DNA of 64,000 bases from Lysobacter auxotrophicus. GTDB lineage: Bacteria; Pseudomonadota; Gammaproteobacteria; Xanthomonadales; Xanthomonadaceae. Location: assembly GCF_027924565.1 (NCBI RefSeq), contig NZ_AP027041.1:1984001-2048000 (forward strand), written 5' to 3'. Both the position numbers and the translations under genes were made by a program. This document shows positions 3,847-16,784 of this stretch, piece by piece. The notes under the pieces are model-generated. The model was not told where the DNA came from. It saw only the letters and a list, made by a program, of their open reading frames with translations, and searched no databases. Position 1 is the first letter of the stretch; each line of letters starts with the position of its first letter.

Positions 3847-6120
3847 ATGAATTCGACCCGAAAGTTGTGGGTGGGGCTGGCGACCCTGCTCATCGCTTCG
3901 TTCGCCGTCCTGCTATGGGTCGGCAGCGAAATCCACCGACAGTCGCCACCGATGCCCGAGCGGGTGGTCGGGCCGCATGACGAGCTGATCTTCACCCGCA
4001 GCGACATCGAAACCGGCCGCCAGGTGTGGCAGTCGATCGGTGGCCAGCAGCTGGGCTCCATCTGGGGCCACGGCGGCTACGTCGCACCGGACTGGAGCGC
4101 CGACTGGCTGCATCGCGAAGCCGAGGCCGTCATGGACGTCTGGGCGAAGCGCGAGGCGGGCGTCGACAGCTACAAGAAGCTGCCGGCCGACGTGCGCGCG
4201 TCGTATCAGGCCCGCGTGCAGGCGTTGATGCGGCCCAATACGTACGAGGAAGGCAGCGGCACGATCCGCCTGGATGCCGACCGCGTCGCGGCCATCGCCA
4301 ACGTCGCGCAGCACTACACCAGCCTGTTCGGCAACGATCCGGCGACCGCTGAACTGCGCGAAGCCTATGCGATGCGCAACGACACGGTTCCCGAGGCCGA
4401 ACATCGCCGCAAGCTGACCGCGTTCTACTGGTGGACCTCGTGGGCGGCGGTGACGCAGCGCCCGGGTTCGGACATCACCTACACGGCGAACTGGCCGGCG
4501 GACGAGCTGGTCGGCAACAAGCCCACCACCGGCGCGTTCGTGTGGACGGTCTTCAGCGTGCTGTTCCTGATCGCCGGCATCGCGCTGCTGGGCTGGCACT
4601 ACGCGGTGAACCACGGCGAGGAGATCGCGCCGAGCCTGCCCAGGACCGACCCGCTGGCGTCCATCAAGGTCACGCCGTCGATGAAGGCCACCGCCAAGTA
4701 CTTCTGGGTGGTGATCGCGCTGTTCCTCACGCAGATCCTGCTGGGCGCGATCACCGCCCACTACCAGGTCGAAGGCCAGCAGGCCTACGGCTTCGCGCTC
4801 GCCGACGTGCTGCCGTACGCATTGACGCGCACCTGGCACACGCAGCTGGCGGTGTTGTGGATCGCCACCGCGTGGCTCGGCATGGGCCTGTACATCGGGC
4901 CGGCGATTTCGGGCCATGAGCCGAAATTCCAGCGCCTGGGCGTCAACCTGCTGTGGGTGTGCCTGCTGGTCATCGTGGTCGGCGCATTCGCCGGACAGTG
5001 GCTCGCCGTGATGCAGAAGCTCGGGCTGGAACGCAATTTCTGGTTCGGCCACCAGGGCTGGGAATACGTCGACCTGGGCCGTTTCTGGCAGTGGTTCCTC
5101 TTCATCGGGCTCGGGCTGTGGCTGACGCTGGTGGGCCGCTCGCTGTGGCCGGCGATCCGCAATGGCGGCGAGTCGCGTTCCATCGTGGTCCTGCTGTTCC
5201 TGTCCACCGTCGCCATCGGCCTGTTCTACGCGGCCGGCCTGATGTGGGGCGAGCACACCTCGCTGTCGATGGTCGAGTACTGGCGCTGGTGGGTCGTGCA
5301 CCTGTGGGTGGAAGGCTTCTTCGAGGTCTTCGCGGTCGCGGTGATGTCCTTCCTGTTCACGCGCCTGGGCCTGCTGCAGGTGAAGACGGCGACCATCGCG
5401 GTGCTGTTCGCGACCATCGTCTTCATGGCCGGCGGCGTGCTCGGCACGCTGCACCATCTGTACTTCACCGGCACGCCGACGGCGGTCATCGCGCTGGGTG
5501 CGAGCTTCTCCGCGCTGGAAGTGGTGCCGCTGGCCTACGTCGGCTTCGAGGCCTACCACAGCTACAAGATGGGCAAGGCGACGCCGTGGATGCAGCGTTA
5601 CCGCTGGCCGATCATGTTCTTCATCGCGGTGGCGTTCTGGAACCTGGTGGGCGCCGGCCTGTTCGGCTTCCTGATCAACCCGCCGCTGTCGCTGTACTAC
5701 ATGCAGGGCCTGAACCTCACCGCGACGCACGGCCACACCGCGCTGTTCGGCGTGTACGGCATGCTCGGCATCGGCCTGATGCTGTTCTGCCTGCGCGGCC
5801 TGAAACCCGACGTCGAGTGGAACGAAAAGGTGCTGCGCACCAGCTTCTGGGCACTGAACATCGGCCTGAGCGGCATGGCCGCCTTCACGCTGCTTCCGCT
5901 GGGCATCCTGCAACTCAACGCCGCGCTCAAGCACGGTTACTGGTACGCGCGCTCGGCGGAGTTCATGCAGCAGCCGATCGTCGACCTGCTGGTGTGGATG
6001 CGCGTTCCGGCGGACACGATCTTCAGCGTCGGCGCCCTCGCGCTGGCCTGGTTCGTCTTCCGCCTCTGGGTGGCGCCGCGGCGAGTGGCGGCCAACGCGG
6101 CGGAGCCGGTCCGGGCCTGA
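3847..6120 (+). CDS. norZ: Quinol-dependent nitric oxide reductase NorZ (qNor)
   Basis: NorZ reduces two NO to N2O at a haem b3/FeB centre in the inner membrane, taking electrons directly from quinol. The 757-residue protein matches qNor length. It has one N-terminal helix (residues 10-30), a periplasmic domain like a fused NorC without haem c (about 40-230), then about 12 helices of the heme-copper superfamily core with membrane histidines, for example in WHTQLAVLW and LHHLYFTGTP. The start at 3847 follows GGAG and removes 25 non-homologous residues. It is monocistronic, with its own FNR-like box and a strong terminator at 6145. No norCB is present, so this is the NO sink for NirK. Confidence 0.96.
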   Translation: MNSTRKLWVGLATLLIASFAVLLWVGSEIHRQSPPMPERVVGPHDELIFTRSDIETGRQVWQSIGGQQLGSIWGHGGYVAPDWSADWLHREAEAVMDVWAKREAGVDSYKKLPADVRASYQARVQALMRPNTYEEGSGTIRLDADRVAAIANVAQHYTSLFGNDPATAELREAYAMRNDTVPEAEHRRKLTAFYWWTSWAAVTQRPGSDITYTANWPADELVGNKPTTGAFVWTVFSVLFLIAGIALLGWHYAVNHGEEIAPSLPRTDPLASIKVTPSMKATAKYFWVVIALFLTQILLGAITAHYQVEGQQAYGFALADVLPYALTRTWHTQLAVLWIATAWLGMGLYIGPAISGHEPKFQRLGVNLLWVCLLVIVVGAFAGQWLAVMQKLGLERNFWFGHQGWEYVDLGRFWQWFLFIGLGLWLTLVGRSLWPAIRNGGESRSIVVLLFLSTVAIGLFYAAGLMWGEHTSLSMVEYWRWWVVHLWVEGFFEVFAVAVMSFLFTRLGLLQVKTATIAVLFATIVFMAGGVLGTLHHLYFTGTPTAVIALGASFSALEVVPLAYVGFEAYHSYKMGKATPWMQRYRWPIMFFIAVAFWNLVGAGLFGFLINPPLSLYYMQGLNLTATHGHTALFGVYGMLGIGLMLFCLRGLKPDVEWNEKVLRTSFWALNIGLSGMAAFTLLPLGILQLNAALKHGYWYARSAEFMQQPIVDLLVWMRVPADTIFSVGALALAWFVFRLWVAPRRVAANAAEPVRA

Positions 6121-6426: not shown

Positions 6427-7656
6427 ATGCTCCAGAAAACCGCCGACACCTCGCTGTCTCCCCGCCGGCTCGCGCATGCGCCGCACCGCCTGATGTTCTT
6501 CATCGGCGCGGGCAACGTGCTGCTGGCGATGCTCTGGTGGGCGCTGTGGCTGGTGTCCACGCGATGGCCCGATGCCTTCGCCCTGGCGCCGCCGCCGGTG
6601 CCGGCGGGCTGGCTGCACGCGTTCGTGATGCAGTACCTCGTGCTGCCGAGTTTCATCTTCGGCTTCCTGCTCACCACGTTTCCGCGCTGGATGGGGCTGC
6701 CGGACCTGTCTCGGTGGCATTACCTGCCGGTCGGCGCGGGGTTGATGGGCGGGCAACTGGCGACCCTGGTCGGCGCGTGCGGCTGGGAAGTCGGCTTCTT
6801 CGTCGGTCTGTTGATGGCCGCGGCGGGGTGGACCGCCGGCGTGGTGATCCTGGGTACTCAACTGACGAGGGAAAAAGGCACGACGTGGCACGCGCGCTCG
6901 TGCTTCGCCGCGCTGCTGCTGGGCTGGATCGGGCTGCTGTCGTTCGTCGCGTTCGTGCTTGGCGCCTCGCCGATGTGGGCGATGGCGAGCATCAAGCTCG
7001 GCACCGTCGGGCTGTTGCTGCCGGTGTACGTGACGGTCGCGCACCGGATGTTCCCGTTCTTCGCCGGCAACGCGGTGCCGGGCTACAAGCCGTGGCGCCC
7101 GATGGCGTGGCTGGCGATCGTGTGGGCGCTGCTGCTGGCGCACCTCGTGCTGGAACTCACGCACGCGTACGCGTGGCTGTGGCTCGCCGACGTCCCGCTG
7201 CTCGGCGCAAGCGCCTTCGCGCTGTGGCGCTGGTGGCCGCGCGGCCGCATGCCGGGGCTGCTGGCGGTGCTGTTCATCGGCACCGCATGGCTGCCGATCA
7301 CCTTCGCCCTGTATTCGGCGCAGAGCGTGCTGTACGCGACGACGGGCGTGTTCGAACTCGGGCGCGCGCCGGCGCACGCCATGTTCATCGGCTTCTTCGG
7401 CAGCCTGCTGGTGGCGATGGTCACGCGCGTGACGCAGGGGCACTCGGGCCGGCCGCTGGTGATGCCGCCGGTGGCGTGGTTCGCCTTCGTCGCGGTGCAG
7501 GGGGTGGCGGCGATGCGCGTCGTCGCCGAACTCGCGCCGGATGCCTACGCATGGCACGTCGCGGCGGCGATCGGCTGGCTCGTGGCCTTCGTCCCGTGGG
7601 TTGCGCGGCTGGGCCGCATCTACCTGGCGCCGCGCGCCGACGGCAAGCCGGGCTGA
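6427..7656 (+). CDS. nnrS: NnrS family haem/copper membrane protein
   Basis: NnrS proteins are polytopic haem- and copper-containing membrane proteins linked to tolerance of nitric oxide and to denitrification. The 409-residue protein has about 12 hydrophobic helices. It shows family-typical segments: APHRLMFFIGAGN near the N-terminus, TTFPRWM, VAHRMFPFFAGNAVPGY and PAHAMFIGFFGS. It heads an operon of nnrS, sirB2-like, a 43-aa ORF, DUF2249 and a membrane protein, with gaps of 10 bp or less and overlaps. There is no Shine-Dalgarno sequence in front of the ATG. An FNR-like box sits at -41.5. Confidence 0.93.
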   Translation: MLQKTADTSLSPRRLAHAPHRLMFFIGAGNVLLAMLWWALWLVSTRWPDAFALAPPPVPAGWLHAFVMQYLVLPSFIFGFLLTTFPRWMGLPDLSRWHYLPVGAGLMGGQLATLVGACGWEVGFFVGLLMAAAGWTAGVVILGTQLTREKGTTWHARSCFAALLLGWIGLLSFVAFVLGASPMWAMASIKLGTVGLLLPVYVTVAHRMFPFFAGNAVPGYKPWRPMAWLAIVWALLLAHLVLELTHAYAWLWLADVPLLGASAFALWRWWPRGRMPGLLAVLFIGTAWLPITFALYSAQSVLYATTGVFELGRAPAHAMFIGFFGSLLVAMVTRVTQGHSGRPLVMPPVAWFAFVAVQGVAAMRVVAELAPDAYAWHVAAAIGWLVAFVPWVARLGRIYLAPRADGKPG

Positions 7657-8206: not shown

Positions 8207-8464
8207 ATGCGCGAGGCGACCGCCACGCTGGACCTGCGCCACCTGGCGCCGCCGGGACCGATGGAACGCATCCTCGCGGCCGTCGAGACGCTGGCGCCCG
8301 GCGACTACCTCGACGCACTGACGCCGCTGTATCCGTCGCCATTGCTGGCGATCCTGCAGGCGGACGGTTTCGACACGCAGGTCGTGGCGATCGATGACGG
8401 TTTCCGCGTGCGCATCGCCCGCGCGGCGTACGACGAACAGGGCAGGGGTTGCGGCGGCACGTGA
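8207..8464 (+). CDS. DUF2249 domain protein
   Basis: The 85-residue protein is a single DUF2249 domain. It has the ATLDLRHLAPPGPMERILAA opening (first strand and helix), a short GDYLDALTPLYPSPLLAIL middle and a closing beta strand. This compact TusA-like alpha/beta fold often occurs beside NO- and nitrite-related genes, alone or fused to haem or hemerythrin domains. Its molecular role is unknown. The ATG at 8207 lies 3 bp after the 43-aa ORF. Its stop overlaps the GTG of the next gene (GTGA), implying translational coupling. The C-terminus ends in GCGGT and carries one cysteine. Confidence 0.85.
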   Translation: MREATATLDLRHLAPPGPMERILAAVETLAPGDYLDALTPLYPSPLLAILQADGFDTQVVAIDDGFRVRIARAAYDEQGRGCGGT

Positions 8465-9720
8465 GCGGACTGGCCATCTCCGAGGCCCCGCCCGCGAACG
8501 TGCCGCTGCGTTTTCTGATCGCCTCCGTCCTGTGGGGCATCGTCGCCGGCGGCTGGATCGCGTGGCATGGCGACACGGGCCTGGCGTCGCGCTGGACGCC
8601 CGCGACGGTCGTGCTCGTGCATCTGCTGGTGCTCGGCGTGATCGGCAACGCGATGCTCGGCGCGCTCACGCAATTCCTGCCGGTCGCGGCGCGCAGCCGC
8701 CTGAGCTCGGCGCCCGCGGTGCCCGTGCTGCACGCGTGCTTCAACGTGGGCCTGGCGGTGTTCGCCTTCGCCATGACGACGATGGCGACCGCGCTGTTGC
8801 CGCTGGCAGCCGCGCTGCTCGGCGTTCCGCTGGTCGGGTTTGCCGGGATGGCGTGCCTTGCGTTGTGGCGCGGCGCGGGTGCGCGCTGGCTGCGCGGCGG
8901 CATCGGCATGTCGATGTGCGCGCTCGCGGTCACGGCGATGCTTGGCGTGGTCGCGCTGCTCACGCTCGCCGGGCGCTTGCCGTTCGATCTCGCCGCACTC
9001 GTCGATGTGCACGCGTCGGTCGGTACCGTCGGCGCGGTCCTCGTGCTGATCGCGGCGATAGGCGCGGTCACGCTGCCGATGTTGCAGGGCACGCGCAGCC
9101 CGGCGCCATGGTGGTTGCCGGCGTGGTCGTGCGCGATCGCACTGGGCCTGATCGCCGGCGCGTGGCAGCGCGCCCGCGGCTTTGGCGACGTGCTCATCGG
9201 GACCATCACGATCACGACCGGCGCGCTCGCCGGCGCATCGCTGTGGTTGCAGGCGCGGGCGCGGCTGCGGCGCAATCCGACGCTCGCGCGGTTCTGGACG
9301 CTAGGCATGTCGGCGCTGCTCGCTGCGGCCGCCTGCCTGACCTTGCCGCTTCCTCCGGACATCGATCGCGCGATGCTCGTCGGGACGCTCGCGCTGGCGA
9401 TCGGGTTCCCGTTCGTCGTCGTCGGCATGATGCTGGAGATCGTCGGCTTCCTCGCCTGGATCCACCTGCGCGGCATGGTGCCGCGCGGACGCCAGGTTCC
9501 CGGCGTCGGCAGGTTGATGCCCGAGGGCGACAAGCGCGTCGTGTTCGCCGCGCACGTGGTGTCGGCCGTGGCCGTATTGCTGGCGATGACCCTGCATGAG
9601 GGGCACGCCGCCGCCGGATTCGCGTACGCATCGGCATGGTTCGCCACGGCGATGGCGCTGGTGCGTTGCGGACTGCGCGTGCGACGCGAGCGAAAGACGC
9701 CGGGAAGCGCGCCGGCTTGA
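8461..9720 (+). CDS. Polytopic membrane protein resembling NnrS/heme-copper oxidase core
   Basis: The 419-residue protein has about 12 predicted helices. Two internal segments have the same design: HLLVLGVIGNAMLGALTQ with LP (residues 54-74) and HASVGTVGAVLVLI followed by LP (from residue 184). Each begins with histidine at a helix start and ends in a Gly-rich helix and LP. That layout recalls haem-ligating helices of NnrS and cbb3-type core subunits, so a b-haem protein is plausible but unproven. The GTG start is chosen because it overlaps the DUF2249 stop by 4 bp. Its own stop lies inside the FNR-like box of the ubiT operon. Confidence 0.7.
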   Translation: MSGLAISEAPPANVPLRFLIASVLWGIVAGGWIAWHGDTGLASRWTPATVVLVHLLVLGVIGNAMLGALTQFLPVAARSRLSSAPAVPVLHACFNVGLAVFAFAMTTMATALLPLAAALLGVPLVGFAGMACLALWRGAGARWLRGGIGMSMCALAVTAMLGVVALLTLAGRLPFDLAALVDVHASVGTVGAVLVLIAAIGAVTLPMLQGTRSPAPWWLPAWSCAIALGLIAGAWQRARGFGDVLIGTITITTGALAGASLWLQARARLRRNPTLARFWTLGMSALLAAAACLTLPLPPDIDRAMLVGTLALAIGFPFVVVGMMLEIVGFLAWIHLRGMVPRGRQVPGVGRLMPEGDKRVVFAAHVVSAVAVLLAMTLHEGHAAAGFAYASAWFATAMALVRCGLRVRRERKTPGSAPA

Positions 9721-9730: not shown

Positions 9731-9787
9731 TGGCGCGGGAGGCGTGCGTCCCTAGCATCTGCCGTCGATCACACGGGAAGGGGCCAC

Positions 9788-10609
9788 ATGATCCGCATCG
9801 CCTCGGCGCCGCACGTAGCGCGTTTCGCGCTGCACGGCGCACGCATCGGCATCGACCGCGTCGACGACGCGATGATCGTGCTCCTCGCCGCGCGCCGGCG
9901 ACTGGTGGCCGCGGTGGCGCCGGCCAAGCGCGCGCTCAACGTCCCGGTTCGCGACATCGTGCGCGAAGCGCAGGTGCACGAACGCGCGCGTAGGCTCGCC
10001 GGCCGGCTCAATCTTCCGCTCGCGTCGGCGGATCACCTGATGCAAACGCTGGTCGGCGACGCCTGCCAGCAGCAGGCCAATGAGGGCGCGACGACACAAC
10101 CCGAACGCGCGCCGCGTTCGCCGCTGCGGCTGCTCCCGCCGCCGCGCTACTGGCGGCTGCCGCTGTCGCTGGTGCCGGCGTCCGTGCGCGACGCGATCGC
10201 CGTACGCGTGCTGTCCAGGGCCCTGGCCGATTCGCTCGATGCCGACGATCTCTCCGTCGTCGCGCATCGGCGACTCGGCATCGAGGTGACCGACCTGCAT
10301 CTGCGCTGGGTCCTCGAACTGCGCGACGGTCGGCTGCATCGGACGAGCGGGCCCGCCGAATCCATCGTGCACGGCACCGCGACCGACCTGCTGCTGCTCA
10401 GCAGCCGGCAGGAGGACGCGGACACGTTGTTCTTCCAGCGCCGGTTGAAGCTCACCGGCGACGTGGAACTCGGCCTGACCGTGCGCAACCTGCTCGACCG
10501 CCTGCCTTGGGACACGCTGCCGCTCGCGGTCCGCATCCCGTTGCATCGCGTCGCGCGCACGCTGCGCGACGCCCGTGCGGCGCACCTCGCGACAGGCGCC
10601 GCATCGTGA
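9788..10609 (+). CDS. ubiT: UbiT with N-terminal chorismate mutase (AroQ) domain
   Basis: The 273-residue protein is a fusion. Residues about 12-98 align with AroQ chorismate mutase. Against E. coli numbering R11, R28, K39, D48, R51, E52 and Q88 are present as R19, R36, K47, D56, R59, E60 and Q96; S84 is alanine. Residues about 115-260 form an SCP2 lipid-binding domain like UbiT, the accessory factor of O2-independent ubiquinone synthesis. UbiT itself normally has only the SCP2 part. It heads an operon with nadA and nadB (GTGA overlap), controlled by a perfect FNR-like box, and faces the ubiD-ubiU-ubiV operon. Whether the mutase domain is active, or acts as a lyase like PchB, is unknown. Confidence 0.85.
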   Translation: MIRIASAPHVARFALHGARIGIDRVDDAMIVLLAARRRLVAAVAPAKRALNVPVRDIVREAQVHERARRLAGRLNLPLASADHLMQTLVGDACQQQANEGATTQPERAPRSPLRLLPPPRYWRLPLSLVPASVRDAIAVRVLSRALADSLDADDLSVVAHRRLGIEVTDLHLRWVLELRDGRLHRTSGPAESIVHGTATDLLLLSSRQEDADTLFFQRRLKLTGDVELGLTVRNLLDRLPWDTLPLAVRIPLHRVARTLRDARAAHLATGAAS

Positions 10610-11628
10610 ACGCGTCCGACGCGATGCCGTACTGGCATCCGGACCTCGAAACGCGCCATGCGGCGCTGGTCGAAACCCTCGCGCCGCTGATGCCGTGCAT
10701 CGAGGTGACGATGCACCTGCCGTGGGTCGACGCGATCGCGCACCTGAAGAAATCGCGCGGCGCGGTGATCATGGCGCACAGCTACCAGTCGCCGGAAATC
10801 TTCCACGGCGTGGCCGACGTCACCGGCGATTCGCTGGCGCTCGCGCAGGCCGCGGCGACCTGCGACGCCGACACCATCGTGCTGTGCGGCGTCCATTTCA
10901 TGGCCGAAACGGCGAAGATCCTCGCGCCGCATCGCACCGTGCTGATTCCCGACCTGGAAGCCGGCTGCTCGCTCGCGGCGTCGATCACCGCCGACGACGT
11001 GCGTGCGCTGCGTGCGCGGCATCCGGGCGCGCCGGTGGTCACCTACGTCAACACGTCCGCCGCCGTGAAGGCCGAATCCGACGCGTGCTGCACCTCGGCC
11101 AACGCCGTGCAGGTGGTGCGCGCGATAGGCGCGGACAAGGTGATCTTCCTGCCGGACCGCTTCCTCGGCGCGCACGTCGCCTCGCAGGTGGACGACGTCG
11201 AGCTGGTGCTGTGGGACGGCCGCTGCGAAGTGCACGAGACCTTCACCGTGCAGCAGGCGCGGCACGCGCGCGAACGCTTCGACGCGGCGCTCGTCGCGCA
11301 TCCCGAATGCCCGCCGGACGTGCAGGCGGAAGCCGATTTTGTCGGTTCCACTACGGCGATGGGCGCATGGCTGGAGAAGGCCCGGCCGCAGCGCGTGGCG
11401 CTGATCACCGAATGCTCGATGGCCGACAACCTGCGCGTGCGCTTTCCCGACGTCGAGTTCATCAAGCCGTGCAATCTGTGCCCGCACATGAAGCGCATCA
11501 CGCTGCCGAGCATCCACGCGTGCCTGAAGGAACTGCGACACGAGGTGACGGTGCCGCCCGACGTGGCCGCCCGTGCACGCCGGGCGCTGCAACGCATGCT
11601 CGACATCGGCCGGGCGGAACGCGTGTGA
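10606..11628 (+). CDS. nadA: Quinolinate synthase NadA
   Basis: NadA condenses iminoaspartate with dihydroxyacetone phosphate to quinolinate, the second step of de novo NAD synthesis, using an O2-sensitive [4Fe-4S] cluster. The 340-residue protein has probable ligands C94 (VLCGVHFMAET), C207 (GRCEVHE) and C292 (NLCPHMK). It also has the MAHSYQ segment and an NTSAAVKAE substrate loop. The GTG start overlaps the ubiT stop (GTGA) and its own stop overlaps the nadB GTG, so ubiT-nadA-nadB are translationally coupled. The placement suggests anaerobic need for NAD. Whether other nadA copies exist in the genome cannot be seen. Confidence 0.95.
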   Translation: MNASDAMPYWHPDLETRHAALVETLAPLMPCIEVTMHLPWVDAIAHLKKSRGAVIMAHSYQSPEIFHGVADVTGDSLALAQAAATCDADTIVLCGVHFMAETAKILAPHRTVLIPDLEAGCSLAASITADDVRALRARHPGAPVVTYVNTSAAVKAESDACCTSANAVQVVRAIGADKVIFLPDRFLGAHVASQVDDVELVLWDGRCEVHETFTVQQARHARERFDAALVAHPECPPDVQAEADFVGSTTAMGAWLEKARPQRVALITECSMADNLRVRFPDVEFIKPCNLCPHMKRITLPSIHACLKELRHEVTVPPDVAARARRALQRMLDIGRAERV

Positions 11629-13058
11629 CGCGGCCCGCGACGCCGCCCGTCGTCGTGGTCGGCGCTGGCGTCGCGGGCCTGAGCGTCGCGCTGTCGGCGG
11701 CGCCGCGCGAGGTGGTCCTGCTCGACCCCGGCGAGGCGGGCAGCAGCCGGCTCGCGCAGGGCGGCATCGCCGCCGCGCTGGCGGCGGGCGACAGCGTGCG
11801 TGCGCACGTCGCCGACACCTTGCAGGCCGGCGCATTCCACAACGACGAAGCCCTCGCGTGGTCCGTCGTCGGTGCCGCGCCGGATGCCGTCGCGTGGCTG
11901 CAGATCATGGGCGTGGCGTTCGATCGCGACGATCACGGGCTGCAGCTCGGGCGCGAAGGCGGGCACGGCGCGCACCGCATCGTGCATGCCGGCGGCGATC
12001 GCACCGGCGAGCGTGTCGTCGCCGCACTGCAGGGCCGCGCCGCGCGCGCCGGGCACGTGGAATGGCGTACCGGCGTGCAGGTCGACGGGCTGCTGCTGCG
12101 CGGGCGCAACGTCGCCGGCGTGCAGGTGCGCAGCGCCGATGGGCGCGTGGAGACGATCGAAGCGGGTGCGGTCGTGCTCGCGACCGGCGGGCTCGGCGCG
12201 CTGTTCCAGCGCACTACGAATGCCGACACGACCAGCGGTTCCGGCCTGGCGCTCGCGATGGCGGCCGGCGCGCGCACGCGCGACCTGGAATTCGTGCAGT
12301 TCCATCCCACCGCGTTCGACGGCGATGCCGATGGCGACGGCGCGCGGCTGCCGCTGATCACCGAAGCGCTGCGTGGCGCGGGCGCAAGCTTGCTCGATCA
12401 CCGCAGTCGTTCGCTGATGCGCGGCCATCACCCGCTCGGCGACCTGGCACCGCGCGACGTGGTGTCGCGCCGCGTGTGGGATGCGCGCCGCGACGGGCCG
12501 GTGTGGGTCGATGCGACGGGGCTTCGCAGCGGCTGGGAACGGGCGTTCCCGACCGTCGTCGAGACCTGCCGCGCGCGCGGCGTGGACCCGCACACGCAGC
12601 CGATCCCGATCACCGCCGCCGCGCATTTCCACATGGGCGGCGTCGCGACCGATCCGCTCGGGCGCACGTCGCTGCCGAATCTCCATGCCGTCGGCGAAGT
12701 CGCCTGCAACGGGCTGCACGGCGCGAACCGGCTCGCAAGCAATTCGCTGCTGGAGGCCGTCGTGTGCGGGCGGTGGCTCGGCGCGCACCTGCGGCTGGCG
12801 CCGAGCCGCACGTCGCGCGATGCGTTCCGCACCGTGGAACTGGGCGACGGCCTGGAAGACGGCGCGCTCGCCGCATTGCGACGCCGCCTCTGGGACGCCG
12901 CGGGCCCCGTGCGCACGCGCGCGGCGTTGTCCGCCGCCGCGCGCGAGATGAAGGCGATGGCGGCGTCGGGCTGGCATGCGCGCGTGGCGCACGCGGTGCT
13001 GCATGCCGCGCTGCTGCGGCCGGCGAGCCTCGGCGCGCACTGGCGCGCGGACGCCTGA
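11625..13058 (+). CDS. nadB: L-aspartate oxidase NadB
   Basis: NadB is a FAD enzyme that oxidises L-aspartate to iminoaspartate with O2 or, without oxygen, fumarate as acceptor. The 477-residue protein has the FAD dinucleotide motif VVVGAGVAGL at residues 9-18, the AQGGIAAAL segment, AAHFHMGGVATD around the active site and GANRLASNSLLEA near the flavin. All are typical of the succinate dehydrogenase/fumarate reductase flavoprotein superfamily. The GTG start overlaps nadA by 4 bp. It ends 6 bp before the convergent ubiV stop. No terminator is visible in this short gap. Confidence 0.94.
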   Translation: MTRPATPPVVVVGAGVAGLSVALSAAPREVVLLDPGEAGSSRLAQGGIAAALAAGDSVRAHVADTLQAGAFHNDEALAWSVVGAAPDAVAWLQIMGVAFDRDDHGLQLGREGGHGAHRIVHAGGDRTGERVVAALQGRAARAGHVEWRTGVQVDGLLLRGRNVAGVQVRSADGRVETIEAGAVVLATGGLGALFQRTTNADTTSGSGLALAMAAGARTRDLEFVQFHPTAFDGDADGDGARLPLITEALRGAGASLLDHRSRSLMRGHHPLGDLAPRDVVSRRVWDARRDGPVWVDATGLRSGWERAFPTVVETCRARGVDPHTQPIPITAAAHFHMGGVATDPLGRTSLPNLHAVGEVACNGLHGANRLASNSLLEAVVCGRWLGAHLRLAPSRTSRDAFRTVELGDGLEDGALAALRRRLWDAAGPVRTRAALSAAAREMKAMAASGWHARVAHAVLHAALLRPASLGAHWRADA

Positions 13059-13064
13059 CGCGGG

Positions 13065-13946
13065 TCAGGCGCGCGCGGCCACGCCGCTCATTCCCGGATC
13101 GCCATGCCAGTAGCCGTTACGCTGCCCGATCGGCGCGACCGGCGTTTGCGCGGCGAGCGCTTCGACGAAATGTCCGATCACCGCCTGCATGCCGTCGGCC
13201 TGCGGATACAGCCGCAGCAGATCCACGCGCAGATCGCGCAAGGCGGGCAGTTCCGGGCTGAGGTCGGTGACTTCCTCGCCCTGCACCTGGATGCCGTTGA
13301 TGCGCAGGAACGGGCGGCCTTCGCGCGTGGACAGCGGCAGGCCGTCGGGATGTTCGATGCAGCGGAAGCCGCACTGGTCCTTGCCCACGTCCAGCGCACG
13401 CGCGGTGAAGCAGCGCGCCGAGTACGACAACGGCAGGCGGCCCCACGCGACGACTTCCACCTGCGGTCGCGCCACGCCCTCGGCATCGAGCGCGCACAGC
13501 AGTTCGTCGATGAGCACGCGCCCCTGTTCGACGCCCGGCACCCAGCGACGCAGGCCGTCGCGCATCAGCATCGCCAGCGCCGCGTGGTTGTAGACGTTGA
13601 GGCTCGGCCCGGCGACGAAGGGCACGCCGCGTTCGCGGCACAGCTGCACGGCGGACAGGTCGTTCGCTTCGATCCAGAAACGGCCGTGATCGACCAGTCG
13701 TTGCAGCGCGCCGAGTTCCGACTCGGCCTCGATCAACGCCAGCGACGACAGCACGACGCCGCGATCGGCCGCGGCGAGTTCCTCCGCGAGCGCGATCCAG
13801 TCGCGTGTGCGCAGCTCGCGCCGCTTGCTGCAGACGGTTTCGCCCAGGTAGATCGTGTGCAGCGGCCAATGCGCGGCTTCGCGATAGAAGGCCAGCGTGC
13901 GTTCGCGCGGCCAGAAATACTGCAGTGGGCCCAACGTCAGTTGCAT
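13065..13946 (-). CDS. ubiV: UbiV, O2-independent ubiquinone hydroxylation factor
   Basis: UbiV and UbiU are U32-peptidase-like Fe-S proteins that form the complex needed for O2-independent hydroxylation steps of ubiquinone synthesis, with prephenate known as hydroxyl donor in E. coli. The 293-residue protein has cysteines C39, C179, C192 and C196, which match the [4Fe-4S] ligands of E. coli UbiV (C39, C180, C193, C197) almost position for position. It also has the YLGETVCSKR segment. It is the last gene of the small protein-ubiD-ubiU-ubiV operon, 12 bp after ubiU. It converges on nadB. Confidence 0.95.
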   Translation of the reverse strand: MQLTLGPLQYFWPRERTLAFYREAAHWPLHTIYLGETVCSKRRELRTRDWIALAEELAAADRGVVLSSLALIEAESELGALQRLVDHGRFWIEANDLSAVQLCRERGVPFVAGPSLNVYNHAALAMLMRDGLRRWVPGVEQGRVLIDELLCALDAEGVARPQVEVVAWGRLPLSYSARCFTARALDVGKDQCGFRCIEHPDGLPLSTREGRPFLRINGIQVQGEEVTDLSPELPALRDLRVDLLRLYPQADGMQAVIGHFVEALAAQTPVAPIGQRNGYWHGDPGMSGVAARA

Positions 13947-13958
13947 GTCGATCGCACC

Positions 13959-14957
13959 TCAGTGCCACGCGCGGTGGTAGGGGCCGAGCGTGGTCTGGTG
14001 ACCTTCGGCGTGGGAGGACAACGTGGATTGCCACTGCGCCTGTGGCGTCCACTCGGCCGGCGCGTCGCGATGGCGATCCAGCGCCGCGCGCCAGGTGCGC
14101 GTGACGGCGTCGACGTACGCCGCGCCGCGCTGGCGGCCTTCGATCTTCAGCGCCGCGACGCCGGCCTGCGCGAGGCGCGGGATGAGTTCGAGCGTGTTGA
14201 GGCTGGTGGGTTCTTCCAGCGCGTGGAAGACCTCGCCGCCGACGCCGTAGCGGCCCTTGCAGACGGTCGGGTACGCGGCCGGTTCCTCCGGTTCGAAGCG
14301 GTCGATCAGCACGTCGTTGAGCCGCACGCTGCGCGTGCCGCCGGCGTGCTCTTCCCATCGCACGAACTTCGCCGGCGAACATACGCCGTGGCGGTTCGGC
14401 GAGGCGCCGGTAACGTAACTGGACAGCTGGCAGCGGCCTTCGACCATGATGCACAGGCTGCCGAACGCGAACACTTCCAGCGGGACCGGCGCGGTTTGGC
14501 AGAGGCGTTCGACCTGCTGCACGGACAGCACGCGCGGCAGCACCGCGCGCGCGATGCCGAAGCGTTCGTGCGCATAGCGCAGCGCCGGCGCGGTCGTCGC
14601 CGAGCCCTGCACGGACAGGTGCCGGGGCAGCGCAGGATGGTTGCGGCATGCGTAGTCGAGCACCGCCATTTCGGCGGCGATGATCGCGTCCACGCCCAGC
14701 TCCGCCGCGGTGTCCACCGCGCGATGCCAGTGCGACAGGCGTGCGCTGTCGGGGTAGGTGTTCAGGGCGACGTAGACGCTGCGCCCGCGTGCCCGCGCAT
14801 ACGCGATGCCCTGGCGGATTTCCGCGTCGCTGAAGTTCAGGCCGGGGAATGCGCGGGCGTTGGTCTGGTCGCGGAAGCCGAGATAGACCGCGTCGGCGCC
14901 GGCATCGATGGCCGCGCATAACGCCGGCAGGTTGCCGGCGGGGCAGACGAGTTGCAT
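13959..14957 (-). CDS. ubiU: UbiU, O2-independent ubiquinone hydroxylation factor
   Basis: The 332-residue U32-family protein partners UbiV. Cluster cysteines C169, C176, C193 and C233 coincide with E. coli UbiU (C169, C176, C193, C232). The N-terminal MQLVCPAGNLPAL and the FGSLCIMVEGRC segment are family hallmarks. The ATG at 14957 gives the standard length; a much longer frame upstream overlaps ubiD and is rejected. It lies 35 bp after ubiD and 12 bp before ubiV on the same strand. Function is cytoplasmic, in the same pathway as the divergent ubiT. Confidence 0.96.
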   Translation of the reverse strand: MQLVCPAGNLPALCAAIDAGADAVYLGFRDQTNARAFPGLNFSDAEIRQGIAYARARGRSVYVALNTYPDSARLSHWHRAVDTAAELGVDAIIAAEMAVLDYACRNHPALPRHLSVQGSATTAPALRYAHERFGIARAVLPRVLSVQQVERLCQTAPVPLEVFAFGSLCIMVEGRCQLSSYVTGASPNRHGVCSPAKFVRWEEHAGGTRSVRLNDVLIDRFEPEEPAAYPTVCKGRYGVGGEVFHALEEPTSLNTLELIPRLAQAGVAALKIEGRQRGAAYVDAVTRTWRAALDRHRDAPAEWTPQAQWQSTLSSHAEGHQTTLGPYHRAWH

Positions 14958-14992: not shown

Positions 14993-16504
14993 TCACGACA
15001 GCGCCGCATCGCCCCCGTAATCGCCCTCGTCGCTGCGCGCGCGGCCGATCCGCTCCCAGATCGCATCGACGCGGCGCTCCACGCGCGGATCCAGCGTGAT
15101 CGGCCGGCCCCATTCGCGATCGCTTTCGCCGGCCCACTTGCGCGTGGCGTCCAGCCCGAGTTTGGAACCCAGGCCCGAACTCGGGCTGGCGAAATCCAGG
15201 TAGTCGATGGGCGTGTTCTCGATCAGCACGCTGTCGCGCGCCGGGTCCACGCGCGTGGAGATCGCCCAGATCACCGCGCCCCAGTCGCGCACGTCGATGT
15301 CCTCGTCGGTCACGATCACGAACTTGGTGTACGTGAACTGGCGCAGGTACGACCACACGCCGAGCATCACGCGCCGCGCGTGGCCCGCGTACTGCTTGCG
15401 GATGCTGACCACCGCGACGCGGTACGAGCAGGCTTCCGGCGGCAGGTAGAAGTCGACGATCTCCGGGAACACGCGCCGCAGGATCGGCACAAAGATGTCG
15501 TTCAGCGCCATCGACAGCACCGAGGGTTCGTCGAACGGCGCGCGCCCCATGTAGCTGCCGTGGTAGATCGCGTTGCGCCGCAGCCGCATGCGTTCGACCG
15601 TCAGCACGGGGAACGGCGCCTGCACGTTGTAGTAGCCGGTGTGGTCGCCGAAGGGGCCTTCCAGCGCGGTGTCGCCGGGGTGGATGAAGCCTTCCAGCAG
15701 GATTTCCGCACCGGCGGGCGCGTCGAGCCCGGTCAGGTCGCTGTGCCACAGGCGCGTGCGTGCGCCGCGCAGCAGGCCGGCGAATTCGTATTCGGAGAGC
15801 GTGTCCGGCACCGGCGCGACCGCGGCGAGCATCGTCGCGGGGTCGGCGCCGATCGCCACCAGCACCGGGAAGGGGCGATCCGGATGCATCGCCTGCCAGC
15901 TCGCATGATCCTGCGCGCCGCCGCGGTGCGCGAGCCAGCGCATGATCACGCGGTTCCGCGCGATCGGCTGCTGCCGGTAGATCGCGACGTTCTGACGCTC
16001 CTGCCGCGTGCCGCGCGTGATCACCAGGCCGAAGGTGATCAGGCGATCCACGTCCTCCGGCCAGCAGCGCTGGATGGGCAGCCGCCGCAGGTCGATGTCG
16101 GCGCCTTCGAGCACTTCTTCGTTGAAGGGCGCATCGTGCTCGCGTTTCGGCGCCACGTGCGCGAGCTGGGCCAGTTCCGGCCAGGTGGCGAGCGCGCCGC
16201 GCAGGCTCGACGGCCAGCGCGGTTCCTTGATCGCCGCCAGCAGTTCACCGAGTTCGCGCAGCGACGCGACCGGACGGTCGCCCATCGCCAGTTCGATGCG
16301 CGAGCGGTGCCCGAACAGGTTGCCCAGCAGCGCGTGCGTCGAGCCGGTGGCGTTGTGCATCAGCAGCGCCGGGCCCTGCGCGCGCAGGGCACGCAGGCTC
16401 AGCGCGGTGCTTTCCAGTTCCGGGTCGATGGGCGCATCGATCTCGAGCAGTTGCCCGCGTGCGCGCAGGCGCTCCAGGAACTGGCGCAGGTCGTGGAAAC
16501 TCAT
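14993..16504 (-). CDS. ubiD: UbiD-type 3-polyprenyl-4-hydroxybenzoate decarboxylase
   Basis: UbiD removes the ring carboxylate of polyprenyl-hydroxybenzoate with prenylated FMN made by UbiX. The 503-residue protein is close to E. coli UbiD (497). It has [19 protein letters not shown] at the start, the [15 protein letters not shown] prFMN region and the [11 protein letters not shown] active-site segment carrying the E and D residues of the family. The ATG at 16504 starts the homologous sequence; the frame is open to 16606 but that part overlaps the small gene. It sits in an FNR-box-controlled operon with ubiU and ubiV, so a second ubiD may exist for aerobic growth. Confidence 0.94.
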
Positions 16505-16520
16505 CGGCGTGCCGCGGCGA

Positions 16521-16784
16521 TCAGCCGCAACCGCAACCGCCGCAGCATCCGCCGCTGGAATGCGGATCGTCGCGATCGTCCAGCGACGCGCGCCTTGGCG
16601 CCGCATCCACGCCCAGGCCGCCGAGGATCGCGATGACTTCCAGCTCGTCCAGGATGGTCGATACGCTCAGTTGCCCGCCGTCGTCCCCGATGCGGACTTC
16701 GGCATCGGGGTCGAATTCGCGCAGTGCGCGGGTGAGTTGCCCTTCGCGCTCGGTGAGCGGTTGCGGGTTGTGCACGGCGATCAT
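16521..16784 (-). CDS. Small protein with Cys-rich C-terminal tail, first gene of the ubiD-ubiU-ubiV operon
   Basis: The 87-residue protein has a folded part (about residues 10-62, beta-alpha pattern) and a tail GGCCGGCGCG at the C-terminus. It aligns with the 77-residue protein at 22240: [11 protein letters not shown] against ALRDVDPAALV, then GDDGGQLSV against DTDGDALRV, and both end in CCGGC. The two are paralogs of a family I do not recognise. The tail could hold copper or an Fe-S precursor, which is inference. The start codon lies 59 bp from an FNR-like box with a TAGCCT -10-like element at 16814-16819. It ends 16 bp before ubiD. Confidence 0.75.

Follow-up and report, generated by a model that had tools for sequence, protein, structure and literature searches.

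A chorismate mutase domain fused to UbiT in Lysobacter auxotrophicus and its relatives: a putative source of prephenate for oxygen-independent ubiquinone hydroxylation

In Lysobacter auxotrophicus one gene joins an AroQ-type chorismate mutase (CM) domain to UbiT, the lipid-binding factor of the O2-independent ubiquinone pathway. Judging from sequence comparisons, we consider it fairly probable that the fused domain is a working chorismate mutase which supplies prephenate, the reported oxygen donor, to UbiU and UbiV (UbiUV). The CM domain would convert chorismate to prephenate, the ubiquinone precursors would be held by the SCP2 domain of UbiT, and UbiU-UbiV would hydroxylate them when oxygen is absent, with prephenate as the oxygen donor; the prephenate source would thus follow ubiT expression, separately from PheA. 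The CM joined to UbiT is conserved in this clade and very probably active. Since AroQ mutases are dimers sharing active sites, CM-UbiT would probably form a dimer, each subunit adding a lipid-carrier arm. That the domain is catalytic, that its product reaches UbiUV and that the protein dimerises are properties that we infer.

The hydroxyl of anaerobic ubiquinone comes from prephenate in E. coli, according to a review (PMC11574389, citing Ferizhendi et al., PNAS 2024), which adds that catalysis of the reaction by U32 oxidases is still to be shown directly. Prephenate had been raised as a possible donor in 2023 (PMC10470549), and the U32 proteins TrhP and RlhA are described as prephenate-dependent (PMC6599085). 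In the literature searched, which covered few subscription papers and no bioRxiv preprints, we found no description of a UbiT-chorismate mutase fusion; it may be in print elsewhere. The portions available to us of PMC6747719, PMC11707229 and PMC13386864 do not mention one. The first-pass annotation of this DNA had allowed for the fusion being already characterised, and no paper on it was met in that literature. If the proposed function is true, the carrier protein of the anaerobic ubiquinone pathway has become fused in evolution to a supply of the reported oxygen donor, and a chorismate mutase has been retained outside amino-acid synthesis. The case that prephenate is the UbiUV donor would then gain independent backing from genomes, and a ready-made system would be at hand for reconstituting U32 hydroxylases in vitro.

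The CM-UbiT protein

The gene lies in the window, i.e., the whole stretch of 64,000 nucleotides of contig NZ_AP027041.1 that was analysed (Table 1). That an AroQ domain is joined to the SCP2 domain of UbiT, as the first-pass annotation had read it, was confirmed by Pfam, NCBIfam, phmmer and AlphaFold2/Foldseek. Both domains pass their cut-offs, and the Pfam SCP2 match covers residues 147-237. Residues 10-86 of E. coli CM (1ECM) were aligned to residues 18-94 of CM-UbiT (phmmer, E 6.9e-5). The AlphaFold2 model has a mean pLDDT of 68, with block means of 75-91 for residues 31-100 and 61-65 for residues 11-30; it superimposes on 1ecm_A with a TM score of 0.88 by target length and an rmsd of 1.0 Å (Foldseek E 3.0e-3), and its best Foldseek hit is UbiJ-SCP2 (E 4.1e-6). 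The closest named relative found, from Lysobacter soli, is 96% identical.

Table 1. Features of the CM-UbiT locus (window positions)
Feature	Position	Strand	Remarks
Nitric oxide reductase, NorB-type, single chain	3847..6120	+	Pfam PF22085 and PF00115
NnrS	6427..7656	+	Pfam PF05940, 207.1 bits
423-aa protein immediately 5' of ubiT	8449..9720	+	matches neither Pfam (E up to 0.001) nor NCBIfam (E up to 1e-10)
FNR/ANR-like box TTGACCTGCGTCAA	9717..9730	+	57 bp before the CM-UbiT ATG; pattern match
Likely ribosome-binding site AAGGGG	9778..9783	+	inferred from sequence
CM-UbiT fusion gene	9788..10609	+	single ORF from ATG, 273 aa (window translation); Pfam CM_2 and SCP2, NCBIfam UbiT
AroQ chorismate mutase domain, residues 19-96	9842..10075	+	CM_2 (PF01817) 49.9 bits, curated Pfam cut-off 27; gapless 1ECM alignment; fold match
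UbiT (SCP2) domain, residues 127-242	10166..10513	+	NCBIfam equivalog NF047962 120.3 bits, cut-off 46.9
nadA, quinolinate synthase	10606..11628	+	GTG start overlaps ubiT stop
nadB, L-aspartate oxidase-like	11625..13058	+	444.5 bits, just below TIGR00551 cut-off 452.75
ubiV	13065..13946	-	NF047965 343.8 bits, cut-off 275
ubiU	13959..14957	-	NF047963 526 bits, cut-off 440
ubiD-type decarboxylase	14993..16606	-	TIGR00148 463.7 bits, cut-off 244.85

E. coli UbiT (YhbT), which acts in the O2-independent ubiquinone pathway, belongs to the same SCP2/UbiT equivalog family and is likewise encoded beside ubiU and ubiV (PMC6747719). However, it has 174 aa, mostly SCP2, against the 273 of CM-UbiT, and the available part of that paper mentions no chorismate mutase domain. 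The AroQ domain of E. coli PheA (1ECM) has the same fold and shares seven of eight active-site residues with CM-UbiT, which differs in having Ala at S84; PheA joins its CM to prephenate dehydratase, whereas here the partner is a lipid-binding quinone factor. A UbiT-UbiU fusion of Zymomonas mobilis is likewise a natural UbiT fusion that points to a shared pathway function (PMC6747719), yet there the carrier is joined to the hydroxylase and in CM-UbiT to the would-be donor-making enzyme.

Distribution of the fusion and conservation of the active site

UbiT was matched in 78 of the 395 genomes sampled in the family Xanthomonadaceae and in 80 of the 299 sampled in the order, 20 of the latter being from the family; it exceeded the family cut-off in 99 of 369 genomes sampled in the class. 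All 78 loci of the family were examined, and 72 have CM and UbiT in one open frame. The other six genomes are G327 and G306 (CM just upstream, other frame), G281 and G151 (N run or contig end at the locus), G323, where CM and UbiT are separate genes, and G104, which has lost the CM. Among the 60 UbiT-positive genomes of the order outside the family, 45 loci were examined and 22 were fused: 17/20 in f12 (the exceptions being G547, G593 and G611), 4/4 in f3 and 1/1 in f2, with none of 20 in f7, f8, f9 and f11. In the remaining 15 genomes the open frames measure 166-250 aa. Outside the order, none of the 38 loci examined (of 96 over the cut-off; the 30 best-scoring and eight more, mostly picked for long frames) was fused, which makes 0/58 for the examined loci outside the fused families. 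No other N-terminal domain was found in nine long UbiT frames, eight from outside the order (L056, L059, L060, L076, L178, L179, L180, L182) and L016; these gave SCP2 and, in four, sub-threshold MDMPI_C matches, all overlapping SCP2. Among loci of named organisms, some identical to genomes with G handles, 9 of 23 were fused. The fusion is thus common in this clade and conserved with ubiUV nearby (UbiU or UbiV lies within 54 of 65 fused loci longer than 6 kb), and not peculiar to one genome, which the first-pass annotation had suggested checking among UbiT homologs.

In a tree of UbiT domains, whose inner branches have weak support, all 94 fused sequences fall on one side of a split supported at 0.98, and the same side holds the split, lost and undetermined sequences and two unfused ones from f11. 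With all fused sequences on one side, the fusion is likely to have arisen once and to have been lost in some lineages. The CM tree groups 93 UbiT CMs with the two separate CMs described below, at a low support of 0.22.

We aligned 93 unique fusions to E. coli CM; the set excludes a duplicate of the window gene (L025), a partial sequence (L103), a sequence that the domain search had misplaced (L054) and eight duplicates. Seven of the active-site positions named in the first-pass annotation, R11, R28, K39, D48, R51, E52 and Q88, are treated here as the catalytic ones of AroQ. R11, R28, R51 and E52 are identical in all 93 fusions, K39 and D48 are conserved in 92 each and Q88 in 89; all seven are intact in 88, the exceptions being L027, L113, L126, L127 and L134. 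These columns have a mean conservation of 0.99 (column median 0.58), a value that none of 100000 random seven-column sets reached. The window protein itself keeps all seven, with Ala in place of S84; this reading by the first-pass annotation was upheld on the 1ECM alignment. Ser is replaced at the S84 position in 92/93 fusions (Ala 80, Gly 9, Cys 3, Ser 1). PheA of the same genome has Cys there, so Ser84 is not strictly required. Median dN/dS was 0.20 for CM and 0.19 for SCP2 (48 pairs, non-independent as sequences are shared). These comparisons support purifying selection on the catalytic residues of the CM domain.

Predicted activity of the CM domain and the use of its product

An AroQ domain might also be a pyruvate lyase, PchB-like or UbiC-like, making 4-hydroxybenzoate or salicylate, and PchB had been named as the earlier alternative. 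PchB (2h9d, isochorismate pyruvate lyase) does have the AroQ fold in common with CM-UbiT, and no UbiC match was found in the L. auxotrophicus genome (searched as a single contig of 4.16 Mb). However, D48 and E52, which the UbiT fusions keep, are replaced in PchB by Ala and Val. Over the eight active-site positions the sequence is RRKARVFE in four PchB-like proteins from the same order and RRKDRE-Ala-Q in the usual fusion; for the one at L217 the top PDB matches are PchB structures, with Ala/Val aligned at 48/52. Position 48 is not Asp in PheA of L. auxotrophicus (Arg) and in two TyrA-CM proteins (Val). As some PheA/TyrA mutases also lack Asp48, the distinction from lyases rests on E52 and Q88. 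The NCBIfam isochorismate-lyase model scores the CM domain lower than the CM model does (14.8 vs 42.2 bits), both below cut-offs. The genome also has one match to a XanB2-type chorismatase, a candidate source of 4-hydroxybenzoate, and 317/395 genomes of the family have no UbiT match, so that their ubiquinone cannot depend on a UbiT-fused domain; a need of the CM domain for 4-hydroxybenzoate was rejected on both counts. From these residues and scores a mutase is favoured, and lyase activity appears very improbable. Stand-alone PchB-like AroQ proteins were also seen in five UbiT-positive genomes (L217:5134-5586, L200:7604-8071, L201:986-1318, L215:5084-5593, L216:3581-3988).

In the L. auxotrophicus genome CM_2 matches two proteins, PheA and CM-UbiT, and PF01136 (U32) also matches two, UbiU and UbiV. 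Prephenate dehydratase (PDT) gave no match in 10 of the 78 UbiT-positive family genomes (G003, G055, G083, G109, G213, G076, G147, G107, G306, G354). These PheA-less genomes are at least 99% complete in nine cases and 89% in G306, and they span four genera, each of which also has PheA-positive members. All ten have chorismate synthase, and none has a CM_2 match besides the CM at ubiT, which shares one frame with UbiT in nine and in G306 directly precedes UbiT in a different frame. Alignment of the nine, with G306 left out for its two frames, showed intact catalytic residues in each. With regard to such lineages without phenylalanine synthesis, we lean slightly towards the UbiT-fused CM being the sole mutase, its product going to O2-independent ubiquinone hydroxylation and not to amino acids. 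The TyrA probe PF02153 gave no match in four of the ten and, in the other six, weak ones (22-30 bits), of which some exceed the Pfam cut-off; it is a poor probe here, since it found no match in six of eight searched genomes with intact PheA. Near-cut-off PF02153 matches of L. auxotrophicus and G083 were rejected as TyrA, for they best fit 2-hydroxy-3-oxopropionate reductase/HIBADH models (below the cut-offs of these), and those of G003 and G109, which by eye look like other dehydrogenases, were not counted.

Some genomes bear on whether the two domains must be one chain. In Pseudoxanthomonas sangjuensis (G323, L189) ubiT is without CM, and a CM gene (CM_2 44.5 bits) with a UbiT-like tail, seen by eye, adjoins ubiV. 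G611 has an unfused UbiT beside ubiUV and, ~35 kb away, a lone CM that follows the 423-aa gene, in the place taken by ubiT in the window. Both separate CMs keep the R, R, K, D, R, E and Q residues. The only other separate gene of the UbiT type among those inspected is in G405, of the same genus as G611, which has a lone CM (L229:9549-11141) with Arg at K39 (by eye) and no UbiT match. The first-pass annotation had the donor made on site by one protein; the linkage of CM to UbiUV agrees with this. As CM and UbiT come from separate genes in two genomes, their union in a single polypeptide is not strictly required. G593 and G104 have lost the CM domain yet keep UbiT, UbiU and UbiV, and there the domain is dispensable. 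In G547 the CM is a remnant and ubiUV was not found within ~100 kb around ubiT; a co-loss of CM and UbiUV is not claimed for this genome.

A domain that is no longer catalytic, and serves UbiT as a dimerisation or chorismate-sensing module, would agree with the replacement of S84, with G593 and G104, and with the lack of CM in each of the 58 UbiT loci examined beyond the fused families. Nevertheless, few columns are as conserved as those of the charged catalytic side chains, for which a pure dimer module would have no need, and the separate CM genes of G323 and G611 keep them as well; we regard loss of catalysis as quite unlikely. Another explanation accepts a working mutase and assigns its prephenate mainly to tyrosine (TyrA), phenylalanine or tRNA cmo5U (CmoA), the link to UbiT being mostly one of low-oxygen expression. 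Prephenate is indeed a shared metabolite of which CmoA is also a consumer (PMC6599085). In G081, moreover, PheA is broken over three frames (L198:7650-8258, G081:C3), the UbiT-fused CM is kept and TyrA has a full-length match (NF006457, 472 bits), and thus the UbiT CM could feed tyrosine synthesis there. Yet, of the 18 UbiT-lacking genomes of the order that were searched with CM_2, 17 have a PheA-like CM (77-83 bits) and the remaining one, G002, has no UbiT, PDT or CM_2 match; separate CMs of the UbiT type were confined, among those inspected, to the three genomes named above. This explanation also does not account for the place of the CM on UbiT, and it seems rather unlikely to us. The role given to the domain by the first-pass annotation, supply of prephenate to UbiUV, would fit its catalytic residues, the ubiUV linkage and the ten genomes in which it is the sole CM_2 match, and is partly supported by them.

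Genes and sites around ubiT

The genes ubiV, ubiU and ubiD sit 2.5-6 kb downstream of CM-UbiT. FNR is reported to regulate ubiT (PMC11707229). When the 350 nt upstream of the CM domain were scanned in 94 fused loci, 15 had the FNR-like pattern TTGAN-N4-NTCAA, with ~2.8 expected from the loci's own background, and the other 79 had none. A TyrA-like protein with a C-terminal CM, the reverse of the E. coli TyrA order, was also observed in two genomes, G222 and G321 (L202:4552-5616, L203:4231-5316), where it ends 89 and 93 bp before ubiU; a TyrA-CM/ubiU operon is not claimed, because an FNR-like site (by eye) lies between them.

The 423-aa protein that precedes ubiT in the window is present in 34 of 65 fused loci longer than 6 kb. 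NadA occurs in 45 of these 65, as compared to 0 of 41 unfused loci longer than 4 kb, and nadA-nadB directly after CM-UbiT is an unexplained link of NAD synthesis to anaerobic ubiquinone genes.
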